64,000 nucleotides of DNA from Tubulanus polymorphus (taxonomy: Eukaryota; Nemertea; Palaeonemertea; Tubulaniformes; Tubulanidae): NCBI RefSeq assembly GCF_964204645.1, contig NC_134034.1, positions 7,869,414 to 7,933,413 of the forward strand. Direction: 5' to 3'. Below are positions 5,200 through 48,676 of the stretch, in pieces. The notes below the pieces were generated by a model. It did not search any database and had not been told where the DNA came from. It was given only the letters and a program-made list of their open reading frames with translations. A program made the translations under genes and the position numbers. The number at the start of each line of letters is the position of its first letter. Position 1 is the first letter of the stretch.

Positions 5200-5765
5200 T
5201 CATAATTTTGAACCTTTATTATTCTTTAATTTATTCATATATTCATCATGTAATTCAGTAGGTATAATTTGATTTTCTTCCAATGATTGTTGCATAGATT
5301 TTCTATCTTTGTTATAAAATAAAACTAGAAATCTTATATTCTCCCTAAAGTCTTTAACAATTGAATTATATTTTTGATTTAAAACCCATGTTGTTATCCC
5401 AAAATGTCTCCCAGAGCTAGATGACATAACTCACTTTCTCTAACTTTTGAATCATGTAAATTTGCGCTATCATCTATAATGAATAATGTATTTGATCCTT
5501 TATAAGTATCAATTGCTATTTTTATACAATTATCTAAATTTTCTTTTACTGTTTTAGGATCTAATATAATAAACTTTTTTATCTTAACTATATCTCTATT
5601 ATATGTTTTATTCATTTCATAAGTAGGACAAACTAATGTAATATTATCAAAATGATTCTTATAAATAGTTTCTAACAAATCTAATATGAAATGTCTTTTA
5701 CCACAATTGGTAACTCCAGTTATTAACATATCATGCGGTTCAAATATAAATAAATCTTTATTCAT
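5200..5765 (-). pseudogene. Polinton packaging ATPase (FtsK/HerA, A32-like), one frameshift
   Basis: The N-terminal half (5394-5765) holds a Walker A-like loop GVTNCGKR and a Walker B strand TLFIIDDS. The C-terminal half (5200-5427) holds the GITTWVLNQKYNS region that follows Walker B in this family. The two frames join around 5400-5430, where a frameshift follows the SELCHLA segment. Family members pump DNA into capsids. The residue after GK in Walker A is Arg instead of Ser/Thr, which would by itself disable nucleotide binding. The ATG at 5763-5765 overlaps the end of the integrase gene by 8 bases, as expected for a compact cassette. Confidence 0.85.
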
Positions 5766-6876
5766 TTATTCTTTTAATTTTACTAGATAAAATCCATTCA
5801 TTAAATTTATCATCATATCCTTTATATTTCACCAAAGAATACTTTTTTCCTTTAAGAGTTTTTGTTTTCAATACTCCTTCTATTTTGTATTCTATTTCAT
5901 CTGGATTTGGTACAAGTGATAATTCTTGTTCATAGAAATAACCTAATATTTCTTCATCTTTTAGATCTTCTAGTTTATAACCAAAAGGTTTAGTTAATAT
6001 TATCTTTTTAATCTTGAATATTTCTTCTGTAAAATTTGGAGTATAACCTTTATAAAATGTTTTTCTATATTTAGATATTCTTACGTGTTGTCCAATTTTG
6101 AATCTAGGTTCACCGAAATCATGTGTAACAAATACTCCATATAAATTATTCCAAACTATTTCCGAATTATCTTCTTTTCTAGCTTGTATAGGTTTCATAT
6201 TTATAGAACTATGTTTAGAATTATTATAACCTTTCACTAAATCATCTAACACATCGATATATTTATATGTTTCATTAGCAGTAAAATATTTCCCCATTCT
6301 AGTTTTTTATTTTTATTAAATCTTTCTATAATAGATGCTTTTTTATCTGAATGTGTTGAAAAATATTTTACATCGTTATCAGATAATAGTTTTTTAAAAT
6401 GTTTGTTATAGAATTCCTTACCTTCATCAAATTGTATCTTATCTGGAATAGCTTCTTTAAATATTGATTTAAAAGCATTTGTTACTTCTTTTCCAGTTTT
6501 ATTTTTGATTGTAAATTGACCATGCGTATCTACTGAATATGTCAATAACATTCAATATCCAGAAATATCCTTTGTTGTATTCCTATAAGTTCTTCATGTC
6601 AATTAAATCAGCTTGCCATTGTTGATCGATATATGAAACCATAACTTTTCTTGTTAAATAAGTTTTATCTATTTTCTTTTGGATTTGATATGTTGGTTGA
6701 TTTTGTAACCATGATTTCAATTCACTTTATTTTATTCCACCATGTGGGTGCCGTACGGCGCCATCACCATTTTCATTATCAGATTTAATTTTATTCCATA
6801 ATTCTGAAACGTTAGAATATGATACTTCACTTTCTGGGTTATAATATAAATCTCTTAAATATTGTTCTTTTTTCAT
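5758..6876 (-). pseudogene. Polinton retroviral-type integrase with chromodomain, decayed
   Basis: Homology starts at ATG 6876 and ends at the TAA near 5758. The catalytic core shows its acidic triad: first Asp in WQADLIDM (about 6610), second Asp in FDEGKEF, and Glu in IIERFN 33 residues further on. The C-terminus is a chromodomain (SLVKYKGYDDKFNEW). Polinton integrases of this type make 6-bp target duplications, as seen for elements P1 and P2 here. At least two in-frame stops (about 6728 and 6585) and two frameshifts (about 6525 and 6300) break it. It is followed without a gap by the ATPase gene. Confidence 0.9.
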
Positions 6877-13793: not shown

Positions 13794-14311
13794 GGCCGAA
13801 TAAAGTAATATATTCTTTTATTTTGATACCTCGTCGACATAACAGCTTTTCTCCGCTATATCTCTTCGGCGTGTTTCGTTTAGGCCTACGACTCCCCGGT
13901 ACACTTAAGTTTATCTTAGTAAATAAACGGTTAATTTGATAAAGAAAAATATGTATTGCTAAACTAACTGCTTGGCGCCCGCAGCCAAATCACTGGTAGT
14001 AATAAATTAATTTGTACTCGATTTGATTCTCATGATGAGGTGAAACTCGCAGCTGATCCCCAGAACGACGATGTAGTGACACACGTCGATTCGTCGATGT
14101 TTACGGCTCGACAGTGCTTTTAAAATGTAAAGTAATTAATTTCCTGTATATCGGTGTCACAGAGCCGACGGCGTCCCCTGTATGATGAGCTGACGTTGAC
14201 CGCGTAACACCGAACGTCAGGCTCAGGCTCTACAAGACGCCAACACTCCTCGGGTGACAGGTCACGTATCTCCTCCAAGCGGTCCTGGGTTCTTCGCTCC
14301 TGCTACCTACT
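13794..14311. other. No recognised gene; possible exon-like open frame at its end
   Basis: More GC-rich than the Polintons. From about 14202 an open frame runs to the P1 insertion point and, with P1 removed, would continue to a TAA at about 19420. A pyrimidine-rich CACAG at about 14160 could be a splice acceptor. No protein family is recognised. Confidence 0.3.
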
Positions 14312-14633
14312 AGTAATAGGGGTAATAGGCTTTCATACCAAAGGTCGAAAGGTCGAGCCCGAGAAATTTTCCAAAATGTTAAAATAACAACAATTTCTAC
14401 TTGAATTAGTCGCAAAACTCATAAAAATGAAAAATAAATTCTCACACACTCGAATTTATTTTCCATTTTCTACTCACTAGAAGAAAGTGTGAGTAAAGTG
14501 TGAATGAAATGGTTTATATTTTAAACATATTTCAATATTTATATTTGTATGAGTTAGATTTTTAAACATTAAAAGTGTGAGTAAAGTGTGAGTGAAATAA
14601 TTCATATTTAAAACAGTGAATATTTATATTTGA

Positions 14634-15284
14634 ATGAGTTTTAATAAAAATTTTGTTATAAAAATGAAGAAAGAAGAAGAAGAACCCAACTTTAAAATCG
14701 AAATCAATGAAACCAATAAATCATTTTCACAGTTTTACATTAAAAATTATATTTCAGCAACAAATTTAGTGTCCGCAAGGTATTATAAAATCGATAATAT
14801 TACTATGATTAATCAATTATCATCAAATGAAACATATTTAATTACTGAACTAGTAGATACTTTTGATAATGGCGTTAAAAATCCTAAAATATTCAATACA
14901 GTTTTAAATTTTAAAGGAACTTTAGATGAAAACATAATTAATATTCTTAAAACTCCTTTCAATGAAAGGAATGATGATATAATACTTTCAAAAGATTACA
15001 ATGATTTGATTAACTTAAGAATTGAAAAAAGACAATTATATTATTTCAATTTTGATAATAAACAAATTATCTATAATGAAAATTCATCAAATATTGGAAT
15101 TCAATGTGAATTAGATAATGAAAAATCATTTAAAGATATTGCAGTTCAATGTAATTTAGATGATGAATTTAGAAAATTCAATCCTAATGAAAAAGTGCAT
15201 TGTTATTGCGGAGGTAAATATTTAAAATCACATAAATCAAAGCATTATGAAACAATTAAACATAAAAACTGGTGTAAAGAGTAA
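14634..15284 (+). CDS. 216-aa Zn-finger-like protein, P1 left arm
   Basis: Intact frame, first gene inside the left terminus of P1. The N-terminus is charged (KMKKEEEEPNF). The middle contains two short similar segments, GIQCELDNE and AVQCNLDDE. The C-terminus has CYCGGKYLKSHKSKHYET, a C-x-C...H-x4-H arrangement like a small zinc finger. A homologue of 191 aa lies in P2 (45964-46539) with weak overall similarity, but the GIQCNLDN and C-terminal Cys/His blocks are kept. I know no named family. A nucleic-acid-binding role is inferred from the finger only. The identical copy is at 18356-19006. Confidence 0.75.
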   Translation: MSFNKNFVIKMKKEEEEPNFKIEINETNKSFSQFYIKNYISATNLVSARYYKIDNITMINQLSSNETYLITELVDTFDNGVKNPKIFNTVLNFKGTLDENIINILKTPFNERNDDIILSKDYNDLINLRIEKRQLYYFNFDNKQIIYNENSSNIGIQCELDNEKSFKDIAVQCNLDDEFRKFNPNEKVHCYCGGKYLKSHKSKHYETIKHKNWCKE

Positions 15285-15341
15285 CAATTCTACATTATAA
15301 TTATTGAATTGAGTTAAATGATTTAAATATCTAATAGACTG

Positions 15342-15812
15342 TTGAAATGATAAATTGTTTAACAGTTGAAATGTTAAATTGTTTGACAGTTGAAATGTTA
15401 AATTGTTTGACAGTTGAAATGATAAATTGTTTAACAGTTGAAATGATAAATTGTTTAACAGTTGAAATGATAAATTGTTTGACAGTTGAAATAATAAATT
15501 GTTTGACAGTTGAAATGATAAATTGTTCGACAGTTGAAATGATAAATTGTTTAACAGTTGAAATGATAAATTGTTTAACAGTTGAAATGATAAATTGTTT
15601 GACAGTTGAAATAATAAATTGTTTGACAGTTGAAATGATAAATTGTTCGACTGTTGAAATGATAAGACAGTTGAAATGATAAATTGTTCAACAGTTGAAA
15701 TGATAAATTGTTTAACAGTTGAAATGATAAATTGTTTAACAGTTGAAATGTTAAATTGTTTAACAGTTGAAATGTTAAATTGTTTAACAGTTGAAATGAT
15801 AAGACAGCTGAA
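15342..15812. repeat. 24-bp minisatellite, P1 left arm
   Basis: About 19 copies of a unit close to GTTGAAATGATAAATTGTTT plus four bases, with small variants (AACA/GACA; ATGTT). Because 24 is a multiple of 3, frames stay open on both strands, giving an INCLTVEM repeat on one strand and an unrelated repeat on the other. It lies between the 216-aa and 72-aa genes. I regard the ORFs through it as by-products. Confidence 0.9.
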
Positions 15813-15828
15813 ATTTTCTCCTAAATAA

Positions 15829-16047
15829 ATGGATGGTTTCATCCCAACTGGGAAAAGTGATTTGAAACATTATCTTGTAGCAGGAGGATTAATATTGGCG
15901 GCATTATACTTTTACTATGAAAATATTTCAAAAGATTTGATGAATGAAAATAATAAATTGAGTAAAAAATTAAAGAAGTTAAATGGAAACAATCACAGAA
16001 ATAGAAAGAATAAAAAAGTTAATTTAGAAAATGATTTAGAGGATTAA
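15829..16047 (+). CDS. 72-aa membrane protein, P1 left arm
   Basis: Intact small frame. A conserved N-terminus (IPTGKSDLKHYL) leads into one hydrophobic helix (VAGGLILAALYFYY, about residues 16-30), then a basic coiled-coil-like tail (NENNKLSKKLKKLNG). The P2 homologue (46583-46795, 70 aa) is conserved in the helix and the KSDLKHYL motif although the surrounding non-coding DNA is much more diverged, which suggests past selection on the protein. Function unknown; one TM helix with a cytoplasmic or lumenal helix is likely. Confidence 0.75.
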   Translation: MDGFIPTGKSDLKHYLVAGGLILAALYFYYENISKDLMNENNKLSKKLKKLNGNNHRNRKNKKVNLENDLED

Positions 16048-16073
16048 AACAGCATCTTTTAATTTCATATATT

Positions 16074-16388
16074 TTGACTATAAAAATGAGTGAAAATATA
16101 TTAAACTTATTACATCTAATATATAAAAATCAACAGAATATTAAATCGATTATTATGCTTACAGGTTTATTTTCATTCTCAGTTTATACTATAAAACAGT
16201 TGTTAGAATTCTATGATTGCTGTAAAATTAGATACACTGAATTAATAGAAAATATGAATTATATTTCAGATAGATTGAATAATATTAAATGCTGTGAAAT
16301 ATGCAATAAAAGATATAAAAATAAAAAGAGTTTGAGAAATCACATGTATAGTCATGAATTAGATGAGAAATTATATGAATCAAAATAA
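16074..16388 (+). CDS. 104-aa membrane/zinc-finger protein, P1 left arm
   Basis: Intact frame. The second ATG (16086, MSENILNLLHL) is the more likely start because conservation with P2 begins there. A hydrophobic helix SIIMLTGLFSFSVY (about residues 26-39) is followed by a coiled region and a C-terminal C2H2 finger (CEICNKRYKNKKSLRNHMYSH). A membrane helix joined to a C2H2 finger is an unusual combination. The P2 copy (46837-47061) stops at CCEI exactly where its inversion junction lies and has lost the finger. Function unknown. Confidence 0.75.
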   Translation: MTIKMSENILNLLHLIYKNQQNIKSIIMLTGLFSFSVYTIKQLLEFYDCCKIRYTELIENMNYISDRLNNIKCCEICNKRYKNKKSLRNHMYSHELDEKLYESK

Positions 16389-17251
16389 GAAATCGACTGT
16401 TAAATTAGCTGAAAATATAAAATATATTAGTTGAAATGTATTGTATACTAATGGATGAGTGGATGAGTTGGATGAGTTGGATGAATTGGAAGAGTGGAAG
16501 AGTGGATGAGTGTAACAGAAGTAATTTATGTTTTAATTCATTCAAGTATGATATTGTAAATTCTTTACACTTAACTAGGATAATACAAGAGTGATATTAG
16601 TTAGTTGGCTTATTCAATAAGAGAAACAATGGAATAATACATGAGTGATACTAACAGTTAAAGTTATTGAATTTCTTGTTAAATCTATTTGAATTCTAGT
16701 CAATTCTTGTTAACCAATAGGGCGAATAGAAATCAAATAGATTTGAATAAAAAAACAATAAGTTACATCAGTTAGAACCTTTATTATTTTTTAATTACTT
16801 CTGAGACTACAATTTCCATATGAATATAAATTTATAAAATAAAATCCTAATTCAAAATATTATAGAATTCACTGTATACTAATGGATGAGTGGATGAATT
16901 GGATGAATTGGATAGAATTCACTGTATACTAATGGATGAGTGGATGAATTGGATGAATTGGATGAATTGGATGAGTGGATGAATGGATGAGTGTAATAAT
17001 ATATATTCCATTGTTTCTCTTATTGAATAAGCCAACTAACTAATATCACTCTTGTATTATCCTAGTTAAGTGTAAAGAATTTACAATATCATACTTGAAT
17101 GAATTAAAACATAAATTACTTCTGTTACACTCATCCACTCTTCCACTCTTCCAATTCATCCAACTCATCCAACTCATCCACTCATCCATTAGTATACAAT
17201 ACATTTCAACTAATATATTTTATATTTCCAGCTAATTTAACAGTCGATTTC
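16389..17251. other. Centre of palindrome P1
   Basis: Contains the ends of both arms (to 16635 and from 17005) and a unique spacer of about 370 bp. Minisatellite runs of GGATGAGTGGATGAATT occur in arms and spacer. Spacer bases 16775-16841 match the region 3' of the Polinton I ATPase (5161-5231), in two blocks, one in direct and one in inverted orientation. No gene is seen. Confidence 0.8.
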
Positions 17252-17566
17252 TTATTTTGATTCATATAATTTCTCATCTAATTCATGACTATACATGTGA
17301 TTTCTCAAACTCTTTTTATTTTTATATCTTTTATTGCATATTTCACAGCATTTAATATTATTCAATCTATCTGAAATATAATTCATATTTTCTATTAATT
17401 CAGTGTATCTAATTTTACAGCAATCATAGAATTCTAACAACTGTTTTATAGTATAAACTGAGAATGAAAATAAACCTGTAAGCATAATAATCGATTTAAT
17501 ATTCTGTTGATTTTTATATATTAGATGTAATAAGTTTAATATATTTTCACTCATTTTTATAGTCAA
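17252..17566 (-). CDS. 104-aa membrane/zinc-finger protein, P1 right arm
   Basis: Protein sequence identical to the copy at 16074-16388, in opposite orientation. The frame is intact: one hydrophobic helix, then a C-terminal C2H2 finger. The preferred start is the second ATG (17554). Identity of both copies implies recent formation of the palindrome or continuing gene conversion between the arms. Confidence 0.75.
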   Translation of the reverse strand: MTIKMSENILNLLHLIYKNQQNIKSIIMLTGLFSFSVYTIKQLLEFYDCCKIRYTELIENMNYISDRLNNIKCCEICNKRYKNKKSLRNHMYSHELDEKLYESK

Positions 17567-17592
17567 AATATATGAAATTAAAAGATGCTGTT

Positions 17593-17811
17593 TTAATCCT
17601 CTAAATCATTTTCTAAATTAACTTTTTTATTCTTTCTATTTCTGTGATTGTTTCCATTTAACTTCTTTAATTTTTTACTCAATTTATTATTTTCATTCAT
17701 CAAATCTTTTGAAATATTTTCATAGTAAAAGTATAATGCCGCCAATATTAATCCTCCTGCTACAAGATAATGTTTCAAATCACTTTTCCCAGTTGGGATG
17801 AAACCATCCAT
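17593..17811 (-). CDS. 72-aa membrane protein, P1 right arm
   Basis: Protein identical to the left-arm copy at 15829-16047. One hydrophobic helix, then a lysine-rich tail. Frame intact, with the same 26-base spacing to the 104-aa gene. Confidence 0.75.
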   Translation of the reverse strand: MDGFIPTGKSDLKHYLVAGGLILAALYFYYENISKDLMNENNKLSKKLKKLNGNNHRNRKNKKVNLENDLED

Positions 17812-17827
17812 TTATTTAGGAGAAAAT

Positions 17828-18298
17828 TTCAGCTGTCTTATCATTTCAACTGTTAAACAATTTAACATTTCAACTGTTAAACAATTTAACATTTCAACTG
17901 TTAAACAATTTATCATTTCAACTGTTAAACAATTTATCATTTCAACTGTTAAACAATTTATCATTTCAACTGTCTTATCATTTCAACAGTCGAACAATTT
18001 ATCATTTCAACTGTCAAACAATTTATTATTTCAACTGTCAAACAATTTATCATTTCAACTGTTAAACAATTTATCATTTCAACTGTTAAACAATTTATCA
18101 TTTCAACTGTCGAACAATTTATCATTTCAACTGTCAAACAATTTATTATTTCAACTGTCAAACAATTTATCATTTCAACTGTTAAACAATTTATCATTTC
18201 AACTGTTAAACAATTTATCATTTCAACTGTCAAACAATTTAACATTTCAACTGTCAAACAATTTAACATTTCAACTGTTAAACAATTTATCATTTCAA
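17828..18298. repeat. 24-bp minisatellite, P1 right arm
   Basis: Mirror copy of the array at 15342-15812 in register, with one base difference noticed (17951). Keeping the same unit number and order in both arms of a fast-evolving tandem repeat argues for very recent duplication or conversion. Confidence 0.9.
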
Positions 18299-18355
18299 CA
18301 GTCTATTAGATATTTAAATCATTTAACTCAATTCAATAATTATAATGTAGAATTG

Positions 18356-19006
18356 TTACTCTTTACACCAGTTTTTATGTTTAATTGTTTCATAATGCTT
18401 TGATTTATGTGATTTTAAATATTTACCTCCGCAATAACAATGCACTTTTTCATTAGGATTGAATTTTCTAAATTCATCATCTAAATTACATTGAACTGCA
18501 ATATCTTTAAATGATTTTTCATTATCTAATTCACATTGAATTCCAATATTTGATGAATTTTCATTATAGATAATTTGTTTATTATCAAAATTGAAATAAT
18601 ATAATTGTCTTTTTTCAATTCTTAAGTTAATCAAATCATTGTAATCTTTTGAAAGTATTATATCATCATTTCTTTCATTGAAAGGAGTTTTAAGAATATT
18701 AATTATGTTTTCATCTAAAGTTCCTTTAAAATTTAAAACTGTATTGAATATTTTAGGATTTTTAACGCCATTATCAAAAGTATCTACTAGTTCAGTAATT
18801 AAATATGTTTCATTTGATGATAATTGATTAATCATAGTAATATTATCGATTTTATAATACCTTGCGGACACTAAATTTGTTGCTGAAATATAATTTTTAA
18901 TGTAAAACTGTGAAAATGATTTATTGGTTTCATTGATTTCGATTTTAAAGTTGGGTTCTTCTTCTTCTTTCTTCATTTTTATAACAAAATTTTTATTAAA
19001 ACTCAT
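18356..19006 (-). CDS. 216-aa Zn-finger-like protein, P1 right arm
   Basis: Protein identical to the copy at 14634-15284, first gene inside the right terminus. C-terminal Cys/His cluster present and frame intact. Upstream (19020-19180) are the subterminal repeats containing CACTCACACTTTACTCACAC. Confidence 0.75.
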   Translation of the reverse strand: MSFNKNFVIKMKKEEEEPNFKIEINETNKSFSQFYIKNYISATNLVSARYYKIDNITMINQLSSNETYLITELVDTFDNGVKNPKIFNTVLNFKGTLDENIINILKTPFNERNDDIILSKDYNDLINLRIEKRQLYYFNFDNKQIIYNENSSNIGIQCELDNEKSFKDIAVQCNLDDEFRKFNPNEKVHCYCGGKYLKSHKSKHYETIKHKNWCKE

Positions 19007-19328
19007 TCAAATATAAATATTCACTGTTTTAAATATGAATTATTTCACTCACACTTTACTCACACTTTTAATGTTTAAAAATCTAACTCATACAAATATA
19101 AATATTGAAATATGTTTAAAATATAAACCATTTCACTCACACTTTACTCACACTTTCTTCTAGTGAGTAGAAAATGGAAAATAAATTCGAGTGTGTGAGA
19201 ATTTATTTTTCATTTTTATGAGTTTTGCGACTAATTCAAGTAGAAATTGTTGTTATTTTAACATTTTGGAAAATTTCTCGGGCTCGACCTTTCGACCTTT
19301 GGTATGAAAGCCTATTACCCCTATTACT

Positions 19329-19886
19329 CCTACTACAGTGTCTGCACCAATGGGCCGGGACAAGCTGCGGGAAGCTATATCAAAACGACGAGGGGTGGAT
19401 TATGGGTGTCCTCAATTGACGAGTAACAGCACCCAAATTAAACAATGAATACCGAATAAAGTATATGATGATATCGCTTTATTTTACGAAAAACTACCTT
19501 TCCATTCCGGTTTCTTTCCAAAACGGAAGCGTGTTCACAAAAATTACAAAAGAAGAGGGCGCCACAATACAGTGTTAACATCCAGTGGAGCCACCCTATC
19601 ACACTTTCCCCGGGACACGAAAATATCGTCCCCGATATCTGTCCGTATGGTAAATATATTACATAACGTTCCTGCACACATAAAGCAAGCCAACATACAA
19701 ATTGACAGGCGACAATTATATACGCTCTAAGCATACACAAAACTACTGGACTGAGGGTGAAAAATACCCTAGAATCAACTAATATCATCCCTTTTTTCCT
19801 AAAAATTTTGCGATTTTTTCTAAAATATATATACACAATATATCATACAGCTTCGAACAAACGTTTTTAACAGCGACATACGGATT
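19329..19886. other. Flank between P1 and the gypsy element, no gene recognised
   Basis: Starts with the P1 target duplication CCTACT. A minus-strand open stretch (19438-19836) shows no motif and is probably the non-coding 3' region or LTR of the adjacent gypsy element. Confidence 0.4.
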
Positions 19887-21297: not shown

Positions 21298-21795
21298 TCA
21301 GTTCACTACACATCTACGACACGTATTACAATACTGCTCCACGTCGGAAAACATACCTGGCCACAGAAATCGTGAGTTAACGACAGTCCGCGTCTTGTCT
21401 CTACCAATGTGGCCGAGTCTGTCATGGGCCCAGTGGAGTATGAGTTCTATTTTATGGTAAGGTATCAACACTTGGTGAACGGGACCGCCTTCAACATTTT
21501 TCTTCCGAGTCAGTATTCCATCCTGCACTTCCAAGGAAGACAGGTATTTGACATAGCGCTGTTCCCAGCGATTCGCAAGACAGAACTTCTTGTTCTTCAT
21601 GACGCATTCTTTCAACTTGCAAATAGTTTCGTCACGCTCCTGTAGCTCAATGATGTCCTCCGCCGGTAATTGAACGACTTGGAGACTCTCAGTCTGTGCA
21701 GCACAGCATACAGGTCTAGAAGTAGAAGCCGATGCACATACTGCCTGTATTACATCTTGATTTACCTTACGACTTAGAATGTCTGCGTCTGTCAT
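21298..21795 (-). pseudogene. Gypsy integrase N-terminal HHCC region
   Basis: A 165-codon open stretch ending in the zinc-binding segment: HDRLGHIGRDKT, then WPGMFSDVEQYCNTCRRC. It overlaps the end of the RNase H frame (21767-23152) by 29 bases, where a frameshift follows the DILSR-like region. It links RNase H to the integrase core in the normal gypsy order. Confidence 0.8.
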
Positions 21796-23152
21796 GTTTT
21801 ATTCCAGGAGTGTACACAATGTCCAGTTTGTAAACGGACAGCGATTGGAGCCAACGGTGGCTGGCGGCGTCTAATTTTGCTACTTTTAGCACATGAGTGA
21901 GGGGGTTATTATCCGTTTCAAAGGTGCATGACTGTCCGTACAGGTATTCATGGAAGACCTCTGTTACCGCCCATTTAAGGGCCAGGAACTCTAATTTGTG
22001 GACCGGGTAGTTGACTTCCGCGTTTTTTAAACTTCTGCTGGCGTAGCCTATCACCCTTCGTTTTGCTTCTTGTTCCTGGTAGAGAATTGCTCCTAATCCG
22101 GATCCGCTTGCGTTGCATCGGAGTAAGAATGGTTTATCGTAGTCGGCAAATCCGAGGATTGGAGGATTTACAAGATTGTTTTTCAATGTCTCAAAAGCCT
22201 TCATTTCCAATTCACCCCACTGGACCATTACGTCTTTTCCTTTGACGTTCCGTTTAGGAAGACCTTTCAGCTGTTCGGTGAACGGTTTTGCCACATTAGC
22301 AAAATCTCTAACATATCTTCTGTAGAATCCACTGAATCCGAGAAATTTTCTCAGACCCTCGATCGTATCTGGAGGTTCCCAATTCCTAATGGTCTCTGTC
22401 TTGGCAGGATCCGTTTCAATGCCCTTTTCTGACACTTTATGTCCAGGGAAAATCACGTCGGGCTGCATGAAGGAACATTTTGAAGCCTTGACATTCAGGC
22501 CAGCTTTCCATAGTCTTTTCAGTACTTCGTGTAATCGCTCAGCAGCTGCTTGGCCCCCCTTAGCGAAAATAATTATATCTTTTAAGAGCTCCCGCTCCTC
22601 ATCACCTTTGGCACTAGCTAACTTGACACTCTCCAGAAATTCCTCATCAGTTAATACCTGTCTTCGGTCATCTCCCTTGTTATTTGATTCCGCTTCAATC
22701 GGCACTTCTTCGACCGACGATGCTTGGCAAATGATCGACTTAGCCGGAATGGTGACGTCCCTGTCTGTAAAATTTCGCACTTGTATTCCCACACGACTAC
22801 ACTGAACTTTAGAGACTTTGGATAATGTGGGCATAACACTAAGTCCATCTAGGCGGGCTTTGTCCGTCATCACCAATCCTTCCATATTTCTAACTAGCCC
22901 ACGGATAGTAGATTCCGCGCCTGCAGGTATAATTACCGCAGACGTAGTTTTCACCAAGTTCAGACTTTCCTGTCTCCGATGAACCCCTGGAACTTTTAAA
23001 TAGTCCAAGACATAAGTCCCAATGAGTAGTGGAACCTTTTCATGATACTCGGTTGGTTCTACGACGAACGCTATTATGGCTAAATCATCCACACCATCAC
23101 GGTAATCGAGCTCCGCTATACCTTCATAAGGGAGTATTGAGTATCTCATCAC
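21767..23152 (-). pseudogene. Gypsy pol: post-protease region joined to RNase H, RT core deleted
   Basis: 461-codon open frame. The N-terminal 170 residues are the linker between protease and RT. It then jumps from GDEERELLKD straight to IIIFAKGG, which normally directly follows the YxDD active site. The fingers and palm, about 150-200 residues, are therefore absent, yet the frame stays open. After that come the thumb (LRKFLGFSGFYRRYV) and an RNase H domain whose first catalytic Asp is Asn (RCNASGSG). The precise join suggests deletion in one event; the element depends on other copies. Confidence 0.85.
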
Positions 23153-35032: not shown

Positions 35033-36241
35033 CGTCGTGGTGATGTAGGGGGTCCAGTGGCCCGGAAAACCCCACTGGGCTGGACAGTGATTGGAAAAGT
35101 TTCAAATGGATTTAGTGAAAACCAGAGTTTTACGACAACTCATGCGTATAGAACTGAAGTTAGGTCCTTCGATATAAGAACTGATGATTGCTTGAGAAAG
35201 ATCTGGGATCAGGATCTAGATTGCGGAAACCTCCATTAAAAAAGTCGGAGATAGATATGAAGTCCAAATTCCCTGGAAAGAGGAGAAGAGGTATTTACCG
35301 AATAATTTTGAAGATGCTAGTAAACGCCTGATGATGCTGGAAAAACGGTTTTTCAAAGACGAGGAGATTGCTCGACGATACAGAGATGTGTTTATGGCGA
35401 ACGTAGAGAAAGGTTATTTGCAGAAAGTGTCAGATGTTGACTTAGAGAAAAATAGTAGCTGGTTTCGACCACACTTTCCAGTCGTTCGTGAAGATAAGAC
35501 AACAACAAAAGTTCGCATTGTACATGATTCTGCTGCCAAAACTGGAAATATGAGTTTGAATGATGTTATGATGAATGGCCCTAATCTACAGAATAACATA
35601 GTAGAAATATTGATTATGTTCCGAACAAAACCGGTGGCATTGGTAGGGGATATTAAGGAGATGTTTTCTCAGGTCCAAATGTTTGAAGATGATCGAAGGT
35701 ACCATCGATTGTTATGGCGTGATGATACACACTCGCCAGTTGAAACTTATGAAGCAACTAGATTGATGTTTGGGGACAAGGCTTCGCCATTTCTGGCACA
35801 GTTTGTTTTGAGACATCATGTAAACTGCAGTGAAGAAAACCCAAGAGTGTCTGAAGTTATTCACAAGCAAACCTATATGGACGATTTAATTACATCAGTG
35901 GAGAATGTTGTGGATGCGACCACTCTAAGAAGCGAGTTATCATCTGTATTATCTGCTGCAGGATTTGATGTAAGACGATGGTGTAGTAATGTTATGGCTG
36001 TTTTAGATGGCTTACCTCTTGGAGATATTGAGGATTGCTTGAAGATAGTTGACAAAGACAATGCAAATATGGAGACTTTGGCTGTACGATGGTTTGCAGT
36101 GGGAGATTACTTGACGTACTCAACTCCGGCTAGTTGCGGTAGGCGTGGAGTCCCGACAAAGCGTAGTCTGTTGAGTTGTATTGCCACACTCTTTGATCCA
36201 CTGCAGTATTTGGCACCAGTTGTTATACCCATCAGCATCTA
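35033..36241 (+). pseudogene. BEL/Pao reverse transcriptase, truncated
   Basis: The region following protease (KTPLGWTVIGKV) is in the upstream frame up to about 35239, then shifts to the frame open at 35331-36242. RT motifs visible are RIVHDSAAKT, ALVGDIKEMFSQV, and the active site KQTYMDDLITS. The frame ends at 36241 where sequence changes to a second BEL element in opposite orientation; RNase H and integrase are absent. Confidence 0.85.
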
Positions 36242-36467
36242 GGACGTCTTCTTCAAGCGTCAAGACTGCAACCAGTTCATCATTCAAAACATCGATCTGA
36301 TTCACTGTAGCGTCAATCTCCAACAGGACGCACTTCAGCTCCTCGGGTCTAGCGCTTATCTCGATCAAATCATCGGCTTTTTGACACTGGCGAGTCAGAA
36401 CGCCCTTTCTTGCACCACGGGTTCGACGGAGTTTCTTCAGCTGGGCTTCTATTTCGTTTGTCGACAT
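36241..36467 (-). pseudogene. Second BEL/Pao element, gag N-terminus only
   Basis: From ATG 36467 about 75 codons are open: IEAQLKKLRRTRGARKG, then a helical region with LLEIDATVNQIDVLNDEL, the kind of N-terminus seen in lophotrochozoan BEL Gag. It stops being homologous at the junction with the RT of the other element near 36240. It lies 3' of the LTR at 36492-36826. Confidence 0.65.
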
Positions 36468-41364: not shown

Positions 41365-41718
41365 TTATTCGAAATCTATTTCATGGTGCCCTTTTTCATT
41401 CTTACCTTTATATATGAAATAGAAATCTCCAGAACATAATTCTTCTAAATCTTCACTTGATAATCTATGAAATCTATCCGGTAAATATGTTCTGAATTTA
41501 TATTTATTTCCTTTTAATCCTTCATATTCTAAGTGGATAACTAATTTATCTCCATATTTGTTAGTAACTGTATCAATATTAGTAATTAAATATTTTTTAT
41601 GAATTGTTAGTTCATTTAACTTCTTAAATTTATAATCTACAGATTTAGCATTTGTGATATCTTTTATTCTATCTAGAAATGATTTGTTGTTCTCACTTTG
41701 TGCTTGTTTACTCTCCAT
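41365..41718 (-). CDS. 117-aa OB-fold-like Polinton protein, intact
   Basis: Open frame immediately after polB. The core reads LNELTIHKKYLITNID, TVTNKYGDKLVIHLE, then FRTYLPDRF and FYFIYKGK. This LNEL...TKYG...LP-x-RF pattern is shared by small proteins beside polB in many animal Polintons and looks like an OB-fold single-strand binding protein; the biochemical role is inference. No disabling change seen, while neighbours are broken. Confidence 0.65.
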   Translation of the reverse strand: MESKQAQSENNKSFLDRIKDITNAKSVDYKFKKLNELTIHKKYLITNIDTVTNKYGDKLVIHLEYEGLKGNKYKFRTYLPDRFHRLSSEDLEELCSGDFYFIYKGKNEKGHHEIDFE

Positions 41719-41748: not shown

Positions 41749-44700
41749 TTAACATGTAATAATCCTTTTCATAATCTCATTCTCTTTTGTTTCTTCTCTT
41801 TTAAATTTTAAGTATTCATCTAAATTGCAACCATACGCGACTGTATGAATTCCATCATCTAAAGTATATCTTTTATCATCGAAAGGAATCAAATTTATCC
41901 TCTCTATCTCTTCAATAAACATTTCGTCTTCTGATCTTAAACATTTCATCTTATGTTTTCTAACTTCTTCATTGAATATACAATTGATGTAATCTTTGAA
42001 ATGAATATTCTTTTCTACTACGCTTTTGGTAATTCCTTTTAACTTTTTAGCTTCATGTTCCTTAGTTCTATAACTATACATTTTAGATCGAATTCCAATG
42101 AACTCTATCATTTCTACACCTCCTAACTCATCTTTGAATTTACCGGGCACCGTTTTATTATCATTGTTAAACATTGTTCATGATCTTTAGGATAATTACT
42201 CAAGTCGAAATGATGTTTTAATGTTTTTAAATCATCTGTTATATTATTAGTTTTTATCTTTAATATGTAACTGTCGGTATCAAAATATTAGATTTCTATA
42301 TGCTTTTCTCCAAAATGAGGTTGTAATACGTTATAGTAAAATTCATACATAAGTAATTTTGATATTTCTAAAACTGAAGCACCAACATAAATTGGTTTAT
42401 TTAATTTCATAGAAGTTCTCTTCATTTTAACTGCAGCTAAATTTTCATCAAATATTCTGTAACCGATAAATTTAGGATATGTTTGTAAATGTCTAATTCT
42501 TTTACCATTGCTAACTAACTCAATATCATTTCTATTTCTGATATTCTCACAAGTTTTTCCATAGAATTCATTAACTTGAAGAAATCTTTTTCGAAATCTG
42601 TTTTAGCTTTAGTTCTCTGTTTGGTGTTAAAATCTATATATTTTTCTAACCATTTAGATTGACTGAATGAAATATATCTATGTACTTTTTTAGGATCATT
42701 CCTTGATTCAAATAGAATTTTAACATCCGATAATGCACTACATAATTATATTTATCTTCCTGAGTTACCATCAACTTTTCTGTATGAATATGATTTTCAA
42801 GTTTAATTCTTTTTTGATAATTTGATAATTCTTCATGCGTTAAAGTTTTATGTTCGGGGCAGTATGCTAGATTTCTAGATTTAAATTTTTTATCTTCAGG
42901 ATATTCTAAATCTACAACAAAAAAGTAACCAGTATCTGAATCATCTGCAATATCTAGAATTCTTTTCTTCCAATCAAATTTCTCAATTTGTAAAAACTTC
43001 AGTTATTTGAAATACTCCATAAGGCTGAGGCTCCATCATTACCCAACCATATAAATTATTTGCATCTATATATAATAACATATCCAGGGATATCATTTAC
43101 ATTGAAATATCTATCACCTAATACACCTGAAACACCTCCTCTTATAGATTTTTCACATAATAATAATTGATCTATATTTGTTAACAAATCCATTTTATAC
43201 CTGTAAATTTCAAACCACAGTCCCAAGTTAAACCTGGTGATGAATAACAATGACATGGATCAACATTAAAATATTTTAGATTAACGTCTCTAAACCTTTC
43301 ATATATATTAGCTAATAATGATACATCTGATTTTAGATATAAATCTACTAATTGTCCATGATTTTTCATTCCAAAATGATTCCAAATATTCAATGTTCTA
43401 ATATATACTTCATTTTTAACATATTCATTTTTTAATTCATCACAAAATTGTTCTTTTAATAATTCAGTTATGTTGAAATCATTATGCGATTTATAAAAAA
43501 CTATATGGAATTGCTCCATTGTATCTCATTAATTGAAAATCATCATTATTTGGATAGTGTTGTTGTAATATTTTTAATTCATCATCAACTAATGATTTTG
43601 ATAAATTATCTAATGAACTAAATCTATATGAATCTATAAATCTTAGGCACCCAAATTGGAAAGATATATAATTCTCAAATGTTTTAGCTAACATTTTAAA
43701 TTTATAAGTTGGTATTTTATCTTTTGATCTATTTGAATTTACTCTTTCTATTTCATTATTGATTTCTTCTATTTTATGGCACAGTTGCTTGGTGAATAAA
43801 TGTGCATCATACCCTGATAAATTATGAAATATAACTGAAACAAAGTTCATTTTCTTTGCATGTAAGTAACAATTCTCATGCGCCGCACCTTTAAACTTTC
43901 GATTCAAATGATCATGGTCTCTTACTTTTTTATCTTTTAGATTAAATATCTTTTCACAATAATAACATTTATCTGCAAACTCAAATTCGTCTTTATCTTC
44001 TTCGTTCATAATTATTTCTTTATTTGTATCTAATAGTTTACTAAATTTGATTTCATACTCAATTGATAAGTCACAAAAATGATTTATAACATTTTCATTT
44101 CTATAATGATAATATTCACTTTTAATTAGTTCTGGATAATCAGATTTTATATATAACCCGAAAGCTGCAGCACTTTGACGAATCTTTTTAATAGTATTTG
44201 TTATTAGAGGATCTGAATAATCAATTACATCATTTTCATTAGAATTTAATTTCTTTCGTTTATAATATATTTCTTTTCTATCTTGGTCAGTTAATTCTTT
44301 ATTTAGTGATTCAAAATCTCCATATATTACAAATGGTACTTTATTCTTGTAATCATATTTTTCAAATTCTTATATTTTATCCTTTTCATTTGGTAAAACT
44401 ATTTTACAATAATCATGATTTTCACATAATTGTTTATGATTTAATAATGCACTTTCGGTTCTGAATTTAGTTATACATTTTCTACATAGATATATTTTAT
44501 TATCAAAATCATTTTCTGATTTGAAAAATAAATCAATTCGTTTAATCCACGTATAATGATTCTCATTATATAATATATCTATAACATCATTTGAATCATA
44601 ATCTTTTGGTAAGTATAGTGGTTCTAATGTATAATGTTTCATATTATTACCTTTTGTTCTTGGTAATTTGACTAAATCAAATACATTTATATTTATATTA

Positions 44701-45322
44701 TTATCTCTTTCTATTTTTGGGATATTTTTAATGCTAACAGGATAACTGCCTATCTTATAATTATTTTCAAATGGTTTATAATTTGATACTCTACAAATAT
44801 TATCAGTTGGAGGATGTAAGCAACTAATTATTGACCATAGAAAACATTTATCATCAGAATTTTGTACATTTATAACAGCATTAGTTTTAAATGGTAATTT
44901 GATATAACTTGATCCATTAATGTTATCATGTTTATAATATAATAAATTATTTTCATCAATTGGTTTTGATTTAGTTACCTTATTATATTTTGTGTTATAA
45001 ACATGTTAAGTCATAGATATTATTTCATTGAATATTAAACCAGATCCTTCAAAATATTTCTCTTCTATTTTACTTTTTATTTCATTATAACATTTATCTA
45101 ATTTATCATCTAATTGTTTTTTTGAATTAATATGTTGTGAATGAGAATTTATATTATATATTGGTTTATCTTCAGATTTTAAAAATGTTACCTAAACTGA
45201 TATACTAATCTTAGGGTATTCTACACCAGTAATTATTTTTATAATATTTTTCATATTTTCTAAATGTTTTTTATTTTCTTCTAATGTTTTACCTTAATGA
45301 AATTTAAATTCAATGGCAGCTC
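41749..45322 (-). pseudogene. Protein-primed DNA polymerase B, Polinton II, main part
   Basis: Continuous homology over 3.5 kb in several frames. Motifs in order: DIIDI...NHYTWIKRIDLF with a C2H2-like CRKCITKFRTESALLNH, KCYYCEKIF and DHDHLNRKFKGAAHENC, the exonuclease region VIFHNLSGYDAHLF, LYLKSDVSLLANIY, YSSPGLTWDCGLKF, the polymerase site YFDTDS (about 42275; a TAA directly precedes it), and the C-terminal GKFKDELGG...KMYSY and YTLDDGIHTVAYG. This enzyme replicates the linear element by protein priming. It is broken by many frameshifts and by P2, inserted at a conserved Gly-Pro-Ala-Ala codon stretch. Confidence 0.9.
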
Positions 45323-45446
45323 AGTAATAGGGAATATGGGGGTTCAGATCAAAGGTCGTAAGGTCGAAAAATAAATTCTCGCACACTCGAATTTATCTTT
45401 CGACCATCCAACCTTTGATCTGAACCCCCATATTCCCTATTACTTT
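45323..45446. repeat. Hairpin terminus of P2 (left)
   Basis: AGTAATAGGGAATATGGGGGTT through CAAAGGT is complementary to the segment ending CCCTATTACT at 45446. The stem is about 45 bp with a short mismatched region, and a second inner stem formed by AAATAAATTC/GAATTTATCTTT has CGCACACTC in the loop. The right end (about 47903-48024) mirrors it. Confidence 0.85.
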
Positions 45447-45633
45447 AAGTTTAAATGTGTTAAATTTTTGATTTTAACATAAAAAGTACGAGTAATTAAC
45501 AAGTGAAAACTTGCCTCGAGAAAACAGTTAATATTTATATTTTTATGTGTTAAATTCTTATCTTAACATAAAAGTAACGAGGAATTAACGAGTTGAAGAA
45601 AATATCAATTTGAATAAAAAATTTGATATTAAA

Positions 45634-45957
45634 ATGGAAGCAAATAAGTACTACTGTCCGACATGTAAAATCAATATAGATAAATCTAAAAAATCGAGAC
45701 ACAATAAAACTAAATCTCACTTAGAGAATAAATTAAAGTTAAAATATAAAGATGATATATTAGAAACTAAATAAGATGAATTAAAGAATGAAAAAGAAAT
45801 ATATAAATGTGATACATGTAATCAATCATTCAGTGAAAAAAGATATCATAAAGAACATTCTAAGTCTAAAACTCATATTAGAAATATGAATAATGAGTTG
45901 AATGATATAAAAAGTAACGAGTATTGAAGAAAATATCAATTTTAATAAAAAAATGAC
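45634..45957 (+). pseudogene. PolB N-terminal zinc-finger fragment, P2 left arm
   Basis: Reads EANKYYCPTCKINIDKS, then CDTCNQSFSEKRYHKEH, two C2H2-type fingers that also start polB in Polinton II (48104-48493). An in-frame TAA follows ILETK, and the fragment stops before the polymerase. It shows which end of the Polinton gave rise to the P2 arms. Confidence 0.8.
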
Positions 45958-45963
45958 TAATAA

Positions 45964-46539
45964 ATGAATGAACAGATACCACAGTTTAAAGATATCGATT
46001 TAAATGAATTAGAAAAATATTTTACAATTAACAATTTCATTCCTATTAAAGATTTGATTAAAACTGCGCGTCTTCGTTTTCAAGTGAAAAATATTACTGA
46101 ATTAATGTTTAAAAATCATTATCTAATAATAGAGTTATCGAATGATAAAGATAAAATCTTATTCAATACAATAATTCCAAAATTCACAACATTTCATGAA
46201 ATAGATAAACATTTAATAATTACAGATGAAATGCAAACACTTTTTGATAATGAAAATTCACATAAAACAATATTTTTACACTTACGTTATTGCCCTTTCA
46301 GAGAATGCTATGTAATATTTTTCAGAGTAGAAGAAAAAAGATTAACCCCCGCCATTCCAATTGAAAAATCATTCGAAGATGTTGGAATTCAATGTAACTT
46401 AGACAATAAAATCGAAACACCTAAATATGAACCTAATGAAAAAGTGTTATGTAATTGTGGAAAATATTATACTCGAAGCAATAAATCACACCATCTTAAA
46501 TCAAAATATCATAACTCAAAAATAATGATTCAACTCTAA
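45964..46539 (+). CDS. 191-aa Zn-finger-like protein of P2
   Basis: Intact frame, homologue of the 216-aa P1 protein. Shared features are GIQCNLDN (about residue 140), the NEKV-C-C-CGKYY start of a Cys/His cluster, and KSHHLKSKYH at the C-terminus. The first part (to about residue 114, CPF) is duplicated in inverted orientation in the right arm. Function unknown; nucleic-acid binding inferred from the finger. Confidence 0.7.
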   Translation: MNEQIPQFKDIDLNELEKYFTINNFIPIKDLIKTARLRFQVKNITELMFKNHYLIIELSNDKDKILFNTIIPKFTTFHEIDKHLIITDEMQTLFDNENSHKTIFLHLRYCPFRECYVIFFRVEEKRLTPAIPIEKSFEDVGIQCNLDNKIETPKYEPNEKVLCNCGKYYTRSNKSHHLKSKYHNSKIMIQL

Positions 46540-46582
46540 TTATTTAATATTTTATAAACTGTTTAATTTTTCTTTTAATTAA

Positions 46583-46795
46583 ATGGAAGATTTTAGCATT
46601 CCAATTGGGAAAAGTGATTTGAAGCATTATCTTATAGCAGGAGGGTTAATATTGGCTGCATTATATTTCTATCATGAAAATATAAGTAAGGATCTAATGA
46701 ATGAAAATATTAAATTGAGCAAGAAATTAAAGGAGTTAAATGGAAATAAAAATAACAATAAAAAAATTAATGATTTAAAAGAATTAGAGGATTAA
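46583..46795 (+). CDS. 70-aa membrane protein of P2
   Basis: Intact, clearly homologous to the 72-aa P1 protein: IPIGKSDLKHYL, hydrophobic helix IAGGLILAALYFY, then KLSKKLKELNG and an acidic end. It lies in the unique centre of P2, so only one copy is present. Conservation between P1 and P2 is much stronger in this gene than in the flanking DNA. Confidence 0.75.
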   Translation: MEDFSIPIGKSDLKHYLIAGGLILAALYFYHENISKDLMNENIKLSKKLKELNGNKNNNKKINDLKELED

Positions 46796-46836
46796 GACAG
46801 AATCTTTTAATTTAATTTATTTTATATATTTTAACT

Positions 46837-47061
46837 ATGAAAATGAGTGAAAATATATTGAACTTATTACATCTGATATATAAAAATCAACAGAATATGA
46901 AATCAATTATTATGCTTACAGGTTTATTTTCTTTCTCAGTTTACAGTTTGAAACAGTTGTTAGAATTCTATGATAATTGCAAAATTAAATATACAAAATT
47001 AAAAGATAACGTAAATTATATTTCAGATCGAATAAATAATATTAAGTGTTGTGAAATTTGA
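46837..47061 (+). pseudogene. Truncated 104-aa-type membrane protein of P2
   Basis: Homologous to the P1 104-aa protein from MSENILNLLHLIYKNQQN through the helix SIIMLTGLFSFSVY to NNIKCCEI. It then hits a TGA at 47059-47061, exactly where the inverted right arm begins. The C2H2 finger is therefore lost, which dates the inversion after the gene was acquired. Confidence 0.75.
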
Positions 47062-47379
47062 AAGGGCAATAACGTAAGTGTAAAAATATTGTTTTATGTG
47101 AATTTTCATTATTAAAAAGTGTTTGCATTTCATCTGTAATTATTAAATGTTTATCTATTTCATGAAATGTTGTGAATTTTGGAATTATTGTATTGAATAA
47201 GATTTTATCTTTATCATTCGATAACTCTATTATTGGATAATGATTTTTAAACATTGATTCAGTAATATTTTTCGCGCAGTTTTAATCAAATCTTTAATAG
47301 CAATGAAATTTTTAATTGTAAAATATTTTTCTAATTCATTTAAATCGATATCTTTAAAATGTAGTATCTGTTCATTCAT
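47061..47379 (-). pseudogene. Inverted fragment of the 191-aa gene, P2 right arm
   Basis: Mirror copy of codons 1 to about 114 of the 191-aa protein (MFKNHYPIIEL to RYCPF), including a frameshift near 47265. It ends at the inversion junction. Confidence 0.8.
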
Positions 47380-47711
47380 TTATTAGTCATTTTTTTTAAA
47401 TTAAAATTGATATTTTCTTCAGTACTCGATACTCTTTTATTGTTTAACTCATTATTCATATTTCTAATATGAGTTTTAGACTTAAAATGTTCTTTATGAT
47501 ATCTTTTTTCACTGAATGATTGATTACATGTATCACATTTATATATTTCTTTTTCATTCTTTAATTCATCTAATTTAGTTTCTAATATATCATCTTTATA
47601 TTCTGACTTCAATTTATTCTCTCAGTGAGATTTAGTTTTATTGTGTCTTGATTTTTGAGATTTATCTATATTGATTTTACATGTCGGACAGTAGTACTTA
47701 TTTGCTTCCAT
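47380..47711 (-). pseudogene. PolB N-terminal zinc-finger fragment, P2 right arm
   Basis: Mirror copy of 45634-45957 with the same fingers; here the TAA after ILETK is absent (Leu codon), but a TGA lies at about 47624. The two arms have therefore diverged by independent mutations, unlike P1. Confidence 0.8.
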
Positions 47712-48024
47712 TTTAATATCAAATTTTTTATTCAAATTGATATTTTCTTCAACTCGTTAATTCCTCGTTACTTTTATGTTAAAATAAGAATTTAACACAT
47801 ACAAATATAAATATTCACTGTTTTCTCGACGCAAGTTTTCACTTGTTAATTACTCGTACTTTTTATGTTAAAATCAAAAATTTAACACATTTAAACTTAA
47901 AGTAATAGGGAATATGGGGGTTCAGATCAAAGGTTGGATGGTCGAAAGATAAATTCCGTCGAGTGTGCGAGAATTTATTTTTCGACCTTACGACCTTTGA
48001 TCTACCCCCATATTCCCTATTACT

Positions 48025-48493
48025 CAGCTGGTCCAATATCACTTTTAAATGCTTCGGTTATTTCTATTTCTTTTTTTATTATCTAATGAATTGATATAAT
48101 TTCTTACATCTTCCATGTATGGTCTTTTATTTTATTGTTTAATATATTTTTTATTCTTTTAATTGTCTTCTGTTTCTCAGCATTATCATTATTAAAATAA
48201 TCTTCACCTATAATATCATTATTGATATTTGTAATATGACTTTTAGATTTTAAATGTTCTTTATAATATCTTTTGTCGCTGAATGATTGATTACATGTAT
48301 CACATTTGTATATTTCTTTTTCATTCTTCATTTCCTCTAATTCAGTTTCTAATATATCATCTTTATATTTTAACTTACATCTATTCTCTAAATGTGTTCT
48401 AGTTTGATTATGTCTTGAGTTTTGGGATTTATCTATATTGATTTTCCATGTTGGACAGTAGTACTTCTTATTTGCTTCCATTTTAATATCCAA
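48025..48493 (-). pseudogene. PolB N-terminus, Polinton II
   Basis: From ATG 48493, 129 codons are open: two C2H2-type fingers (YYCPTWKINIDKS, where the second Cys is Trp, and CDTCNQSFSDKRYYKEH) and a basic linker ending at 48104. Reading then continues broken to the P2 insertion site. This is the 5' part of the gene at 41749-45322. It begins only 56 bases inside the hairpin terminus. Confidence 0.85.
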
Positions 48494-48548
48494 TTTTCTA
48501 TTAAAATCGATTTTATATGTTATTCATTATATATATGAACATTTTAAG

Positions 48549-48676
48549 AGTAAATAGGAATAAGTTGTTCTAGATTAAAGGTTGAGGGGTCGCATTCATA
48601 AAAAATGAAAAATTTATCATTTTTTATGAATTCGACCTCTCGACCTTTGATCTAGAACAACTTATTCCTATTTACT
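48549..48676. repeat. Terminal hairpin of Polinton II
   Basis: AGTAAATAGGAATAAGTTGT and following bases fold back on the segment ending CTTATTCCTATTTACT. The stem is about 55 bp with few mismatches, with the apex at ATGAAAAATTTATCATTT. The outer edge at 48676 adjoins polB of Polinton III. The same inner flank (CTTAAAAT on the minus strand) is seen at 11072. Confidence 0.85.

Follow-up and report, generated by a model that had tools for sequence, protein, structure and literature searches.

What kind of element is a 5-kb palindrome that combines the ends and target-site duplication of a Polinton with the same genes in both arms? The element, here called P1, lies in a 64,000-nucleotide stretch of the genome of the nemertean Tubulanus polymorphus (contig NC_134034.1, positions 7,869,414 to 7,933,413), the whole of which is hereafter called the window. 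We consider P1 to be probably a symmetric satellite of Polintons that is replicated and integrated in trans and whose arms are re-copied through a hairpin. An initial annotation had suggested that it may be a new class of non-autonomous, symmetric Polinton. The present analysis supports that reading, although "satellite" fits better than "deleted Polinton", since the family has conserved genes of its own.

Structure of P1

Self-alignment of the region places P1 at 14312-19328 (5,017 bp) and resolves it into two inverted arms and a 367-nt centre (Table 1). The arms are 2,325 bp each, pair without gaps, and are 99.83% alike. The initial annotation had described perfect arms of 2,324 bp; the register and the inverted pairing stand, but the arms are not perfect, since they differ at four sites (14504, 14969, 15689, and 16412), every one a transition. 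P1 starts with AGTAATAGGGG and ends with CCCCTATTACT, and CCTACT flanks it in direct orientation at 14306-14311 and 19329-19334, which confirms the AG...CT ends and the 6-bp duplication first read there. Each arm carries, from its end inward, gene A, a 24-bp tandem array, gene B, and gene C. The genes annotated in both arms are thus present, as open reading frames (ORFs) of 216, 72, and 100 amino acids (aa) per arm, and no ATG-started ORF of P1 exceeds 216 aa. The 2-kb flanks of P1 have a G+C content of 36% and 44%, and P1 itself one of 24%. In agreement with the claim that P1 has neither polymerase nor integrase, tblastn with one Polinton query of each (the polymerase of L038 and the integrase of L037; E <= 1e-5) gave no match inside 14312-19328.

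The 24-base end motif has three matches in the window, each with 0 mismatches, while 0 were expected from 100 shuffles. Since this count departs from the shuffles and the palindrome recurs genome-wide, chance is excluded for P1. The centre of P1 is one-sided, and its nucleotides 1-306 are present, wholly or in part, in both arms of three other elements (L016, L018, and L020). P1 is therefore an apparent centre-deleted form of a longer palindrome, and its centre looks like, for the most part, a remnant of one arm of that palindrome.

A family of probable satellites across the genome

The searched assembly comprises 267.8 Mb in 77 contigs. The P1 arm has at least 251 matches in it (38 of 1955 first-look candidates were scored), and gene A has 162 in all. 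Among the 150 gene A matches listed, neighbouring pairs up to 12 kb apart are inward-facing in 29 cases, same-sense in one, and outward-facing in none. We studied 28 satellite loci, namely P1, its sister element P2 in the window, and 26 loci fetched from the genome (L009-L028 and L031-L036); the fetched loci are mostly the best arm matches, which biases the sample towards P1. For 17 elements both ends were located, and all counts of ends and duplications rest on these. One or both ends lie outside the sequence read in L011, L012, L017, L019, L023, L024, L026, L028, L031, L035, and L036.

The 17 elements are 2,611-7,741 bp long. A perfect 6-bp target duplication flanks 15 of them, each with a different 6-mer; the duplication matches at five of six positions in P2 and at one of six in L009. 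Palindromic copies with 6-bp duplications beyond P1, which the initial annotation had proposed to count, are thus many. Flanks of up to 500 bp were compared for the 17 elements; left and right flank match in inverted orientation in L033 alone, over 48 bp, and those of L010 have direct repeats in common. At L011 and L012, a one-armed satellite is present in two copies of the same orientation and with the same left flank, separated by about 13.3 kb, and these two loci look like one host DNA segment duplicated in tandem.

Ties to Polintons

The termini of the satellites resemble those of a full-length Polinton on contig C1, which is itself flanked by a 6-bp duplication (TACAGT) and has 575-bp terminal repeats that are 99.8% identical. 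Over the terminal 55 bp, 31 of the 34 satellite ends differ from this Polinton at 2-10 bases (7 at both P1 ends), and the remaining three (both P2 ends and the left end of L015) at 18-33 bases in an ungapped comparison. Genome-wide, the end motif has 841 and 843 matches on the two strands with at most one mismatch, and its reversed control has none. The 575-bp repeat of the C1 Polinton (ends L029 and L030) forms a compound hairpin of its own: some 400 bp inward, the end motif recurs in inverted orientation and is followed by CTTAAAATATTC, which some satellites have as well. The repeat extends to the start of polB, the Polinton polymerase gene, and its integrase-side copy thus includes about 30 polB codons.

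Likeness to Polintons extends from the ends into the arms. Beyond the terminal 158 bp listed in Table 1, positions 295-412 of the P1 arm, around the start of gene A, are 69% identical to the sequence around a Polinton polB start (E 2.6e-5). P2 is inserted at about codon 149 of a broken Polinton polB; codons 1-89 of polB also occur in each of its two arms, with 77.5% and 78.7% identity. Since these stretches of the P1 and P2 arms match the polB end of a Polinton, the satellite arms have evidently been built from it, at least in part. The tie to Polintons is thus firmer than initially proposed. The gene order A, B, C of the P1 arm is kept in the P2 relatives of these genes.

Candidate helpers exist in the same genome, where intact frames of integrase and polymerase both occur (each gene scored by itself). 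The integrase has at least 150 scored matches of 1457 candidates and polB at least 150 of 1426, most of them without an internal stop. Among the matches listed, integrase copies are about 95-98% and polymerase copies about 88-91% identical to the pieces in the window, mostly without stops; the Polintons of this genome have, these copies suggest, recently been active. One 362-aa integrase frame contains an integrase core domain (E 9e-9) and a weak chromodomain match. One 1,344-aa polymerase frame has no Pfam polymerase match of its own, and its relatives at 43-59% identity carry PF03175.

Conserved genes of the family

Comparison between elements shows purifying selection on all three genes, A, B, and C. 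Only intact frames were compared, with P2 excluded (A, 37 copies from 25 loci; B, 17 from 11; C, 30 from 21), and the summed nonsynonymous (dN) over summed synonymous (dS) divergence was 0.42 for A, 0.12 for B, and 0.28 for C (654, 130, and 426 pairs, which are related and not independent). Pairs with dS above 0.02 had dN/dS below 1 in 627 of 629 cases for A, all 113 for B, and 388 of 401 for C. Third codon positions are the richest in variable sites when one arm per locus is counted (49/49/82 for A, 7/8/25 for B, and 30/21/54 for C). In single-piece matches covering at least 85% of the gene, in-frame stops occur in 4 of 42 copies of A, 1 of 17 of B, and 0 of 30 of C. Since the three small genes of each arm are under such selection, the family is not mere debris. 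In a subfamily (L031, L035, and L036) gene A is about 80% identical and the symmetric structure is kept; the diverged L035 has the same three genes in the same order in both arms.

Database comparisons gave few leads to what these genes encode. None of the three reaches a curated Pfam cut-off: gene C matches C2H2 fingers weakly (best E 8e-5) and gene A has two weak matches (E 0.019 and 0.03), all below the cut-offs. By eye, gene A has a C-terminal Cys/His cluster, and genes B and C have a hydrophobic segment each. Of 98 candidate relatives of gene A drawn from 5.8 billion proteins, none matched at E <= 0.001, and no relative of gene A, of the integrase, or of the end motif was found in viral_contigs. 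The AlphaFold model of gene A has a mean predicted local distance difference test score (pLDDT) of 32.6. A tblastn search of the window's other Polinton stretches (E <= 1e-4) found none of genes A-C.

Several candidate relationships were rejected. A PHROG match of gene B (E 0.002) was judged too weak, and one of gene C to a family named major head protein (E 0.008) was too weak to be trusted. Gene A as an OB-fold relative of a 117-aa Polinton ORF (41365-41718) was dropped at an hhalign probability of 1.7%, and its comparison with a 260-aa ORF gave 0.07%. The likeness of gene C to a 125-aa Polinton ORF (E 0.018 in a two-sequence comparison) was not used. A tie of gene A to Polintons by position was likewise set aside: six of the 150 listed gene A matches have one of the 150 integrases of an incomplete list within 20 kb, and two of the six are P1 itself.

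Symmetry and identity of the arms

The mirrored share varies widely among the elements: it is 100% in L009, L010, and L020, 99% in L016, 94% in L022, and 93% in P1, falls to 85% in L013, 80% in L032 and L033, 71% in P2, and 68% in L018, and is lowest in L034 (58%), L025 (57%), L014 (50%), L027 (33%), L015 (14%), and L021 (13%). The four elements mirrored over 99-100% are 5.5-6.7 kb long. Over their matched parts the arms are 95.8% to 99.8% identical, with 2-3% divergence in L014, L018, and L025, and they are far more alike within elements than between elements. The two arms of a two-copy locus are sisters in 11 of 12 cases for gene A, 8 of 9 for gene C, and 5 of 6 for gene B, where identical rows leave some supports undefined. 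The number of array units, which ranges from 10 to 96 per arm, is equal in both arms of P1, L009, L010, L013, L020, and L032, and within one in L016 and L022. The 24-bp arrays are enlarged in L021, L027, and L034 (101, 73, and 157 counted units per element) and run in one sense only in L021 and L027; in one frame the units encode a repeated MINCLTVE peptide.

The axes of symmetry are in part common to several elements. L009 and L010 have one short asymmetric axis spacer in common, though their arm ends are only about 91% identical. L018 and L020 have in common an axis region that is 93% identical over 452 columns and includes an asymmetric spacer of very roughly 200 nt, and the axis of L016 is apparently a shorter version of it. 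Other groups have other axes, that of L022 lying inside gene C. Since axis spacers are common to different elements, the symmetry is inherited, and these elements did not each arise by a new fold-back.

Mismatches between arms were unevenly placed (simulated P <0.05) in four of nine elements tested (L009, L016, L020, and L022). The uneven mismatches of L009, L016, and L020 adjoin the axis, in the non-complementary spacer. Outside the last 60-115 bases before the axis, the arms mismatch at 2 sites in L009, 6 in L016, and 0 of 2,917 bases in L020.

Proposed mechanism and alternative explanations

Since no polymerase or integrase was found in the satellites, they would need helpers in trans, and the common ends and the duplication length point to Polintons in this role. 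The Polintons of the genome would replicate the satellites from their ends by protein priming. A displaced strand could then fold on itself through both arms, and copying or repair within this hairpin would let one arm serve as template for the other, leaving the arms identical and the loop alone unique. The Polinton integrase would insert the products, and genes A, B, and C may be retained for a benefit to the element, such as a part in its dependence on Polintons or in competing with them. We put forward more tentatively, as a prospect slightly short of even, that the satellites form a self-perpetuating class of elements with a self-complementary genome, each made of one gene set in two mirrored versions, in which symmetry is both inherited and renewed by the hairpin at each replication while Polintons supply polymerase and integrase. 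If so, the palindrome itself would be an adaptation, making both ends and both displaced strands equivalent.

Several observations weigh against a mobile, symmetric Polinton satellite. For most of the arm, genes A, B, and C included, the compared Polinton pieces offer no counterpart. The selection estimates rest on related, non-independent pairs and on intact frames, a selection of copies that pulls dN/dS down. Only 58 of the 150 listed gene A matches fall into inward pairs, and 92 are without a listed partner. Nor are all 29 pairs independent: a pair on C14 and a pair on C2 with equal spacing and scores are possibly one duplicated locus. Symmetry is partial in L014, L018, L025, L027, L034, and P2, and L015 and L021 are one-armed. 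The arms are not sisters for genes A and C of L035 and for gene B of L010, and array counts differ between the arms of L014, L018, L025, and L034. Finally, no Polinton end was found in the diverged subfamily of L031: this element has no match to the end motif, and beyond its mirrored part other sequence follows, without a duplication that is evident.

The chief rival is that P1 and its relatives are ordinary foldback-type non-autonomous transposons, made of Polinton ends with long inverted repeats, and that gene conversion acting on the inserted copy in the chromosome keeps the arms similar, as in chromosomal palindromes. Arms alike within elements would be expected in this case, and the uneven mismatches of L009, L016, L020, and L022 might be conversion tracts, but in the first three the unevenness lies in the non-complementary spacer adjoining the axis. 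The copies with 2-3% arm divergence (L014, L018, and L025) disfavour conversion in place as the sole cause, since it has not kept up there, and this explanation leaves the selection on three genes unaccounted for. We regard it as unlikely.

Inert defective Polinton genomes, which would resemble the symmetric defective genomes of adenoviruses, arise repeatedly by duplication of an end, and found no lasting lineage, are a clearly improbable source. The polB start in the P2 arms and the variation of axis positions between groups would fit them. The axis spacers common to L009 and L010 and to L018 and L020 speak against repeated origins, as do the selection on genes A-C, their order kept in L035, and their absence from the other Polinton stretches searched in the window.

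Near-perfect inverted arms, as in P1, are a known signature of assembly artefacts, but a fold-back of the assembly is very unlikely, since it would run into the flank and could not create direct duplications, whereas the palindromes stop at element ends beside direct 6-bp repeats with an inverted match, among the flanks compared, in L033 only, the P1 arms differ at four sites around an asymmetric centre, and inward gene A pairs recur among the matches listed.

Other elements of the window

The features of the window are collected in Table 1. The stretch 41752-51355 appears as if one Polinton had been inserted into another: close to the end of the polB that P2 interrupts there is a Polinton-like terminus (about 48676), and a second polB, more divergent and in pieces that are 51-73% identical, follows it immediately (48681-51355). 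The window also contains two fragments of long terminal repeat (LTR) retrotransposons, one at 21767-23149 with reverse-transcriptase RNase H domains and one at 35331-36242 with a reverse transcriptase and a weak match to a Pao peptidase. Genes of host type, located in the window or in L011, encode a TGF-beta domain, a rhodopsin-type receptor, and a CUB domain.

Table 1 Features of P1, P2, and the neighbouring Polintons, in positions of the window.
Feature	Position	Strand	Remark
Integrase of left-hand Polinton	5761..6876	-	three pieces, broken, weak chromodomain match
Left target-site duplication CCTACT	14306..14311	.	
P1 left arm	14312..16636	+	2,325 bp
Polinton-type terminus, arm 1-158	14312..14469	+	85% identity to terminus at polB end of L038 Polinton
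Gene A	14634..15284	+	216 aa
24-bp tandem array, left arm	15341..15802	+	18 units
Gene B	15829..16047	+	72 aa
Gene C	16086..16388	+	100 aa
Asymmetric centre	16637..17003	.	367 nt
P1 right arm	17004..19328	-	2,325 bp
Gene C, second copy	17252..17554	-	
Gene B, second copy	17593..17811	-	tblastn 17811-17596 + stop
24-bp tandem array, right arm	17838..18299	-	18 units
Gene A, second copy	18356..19006	-	
Right target-site duplication CCTACT	19329..19334	.	
polB interrupted by P2, residues 149-1344	41752..45320	-	several pieces, broken
P2, sister element	45323..48024	.	2.7 kb, 71% mirrored; flanks CAGCTC/CAGCTG (5 of 6)
Polinton polB codons 1-89 in P2 left arm	45634..45900	+	one in-frame stop
P2 relative of gene A	45964..46539	+	191 aa, 35% identity
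P2 relatives of B and C	46589..47058	+	86-87% over matched parts (B residues 2-48, C residues 1-72)
Polinton polB codons 1-89 in P2 right arm	47445..47711	-	one in-frame stop
polB of same P2-interrupted Polinton, residues 1-149	48026..48481	-	

Comparison with known systems

Polintons have been known as large autonomous virus-like elements, and populous, gene-bearing, symmetric satellites would give an animal genome a second tier of parasitism. There is a real chance that the satellite family is a distinct class. In titles and abstract openings of the open-access literature we found no description of a symmetric or palindromic Polinton satellite, subscription journals being mostly outside the search, and no open-access paper with the phrase non-autonomous Polinton or Maverick was found. 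Such satellites would inform Polinton replication, its displaced strands and hairpins, and would allow tests of how far Polinton integrase and polymerase act in trans. They are also natural palindromes of several kilobases, in which the differences between arms could date an insertion.

P1 shares with Polintons (Mavericks) a 6-bp duplication, 5'-AG...CT-3' ends, and terminal inverted repeats. For vertebrate Mavericks, one study describes 6-bp target-site duplications, AGT/ACT ends, and a jumping-back role of the end repeats (PMC8097293). The satellites differ in length, with 2.6-7.7 kb (n = 17) versus the 15-20 kb given for Polintons/Mavericks (PMC4028283). Since vertebrate Mavericks are described as near 17 kb with about 10% variation (PMC8097293), satellites of 5 kb would break the Maverick size rule. 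P1 further differs in that no polymerase or integrase was found in it by tblastn, in being mostly inverted repeat, and in having genes A-C of its own.

The foldback elements FB and Galileo, which belong to other DNA transposon families, have very long inverted repeats with variable arms and centres. The satellites resemble them in consisting mostly of inverted repeats (93% of P1 and 99-100% of four others, with 13-14% in L015 and L021), and differ in having Polinton ends, 6-bp duplications, and genes conserved in both arms. In adenoviruses, symmetric defective genomes arise when one end of a protein-primed linear genome is duplicated, and are self-complementary and helper-dependent. The satellites, in contrast, are a heritable, integrated, and diversified lineage with conserved genes.

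By analogy, the satellites may also be likened to virophages and other satellites of large DNA viruses, which they would resemble in depending on a helper, having genes of their own, and being able to reside in the helper, as P2 does in a Polinton polB. They differ in that P1 has no ORF above 216 aa and no polymerase found in it, the proposed helper is integrated, and the element is symmetric. The P1 family may thus be a parasite of a parasite, in an unusual self-complementary form.

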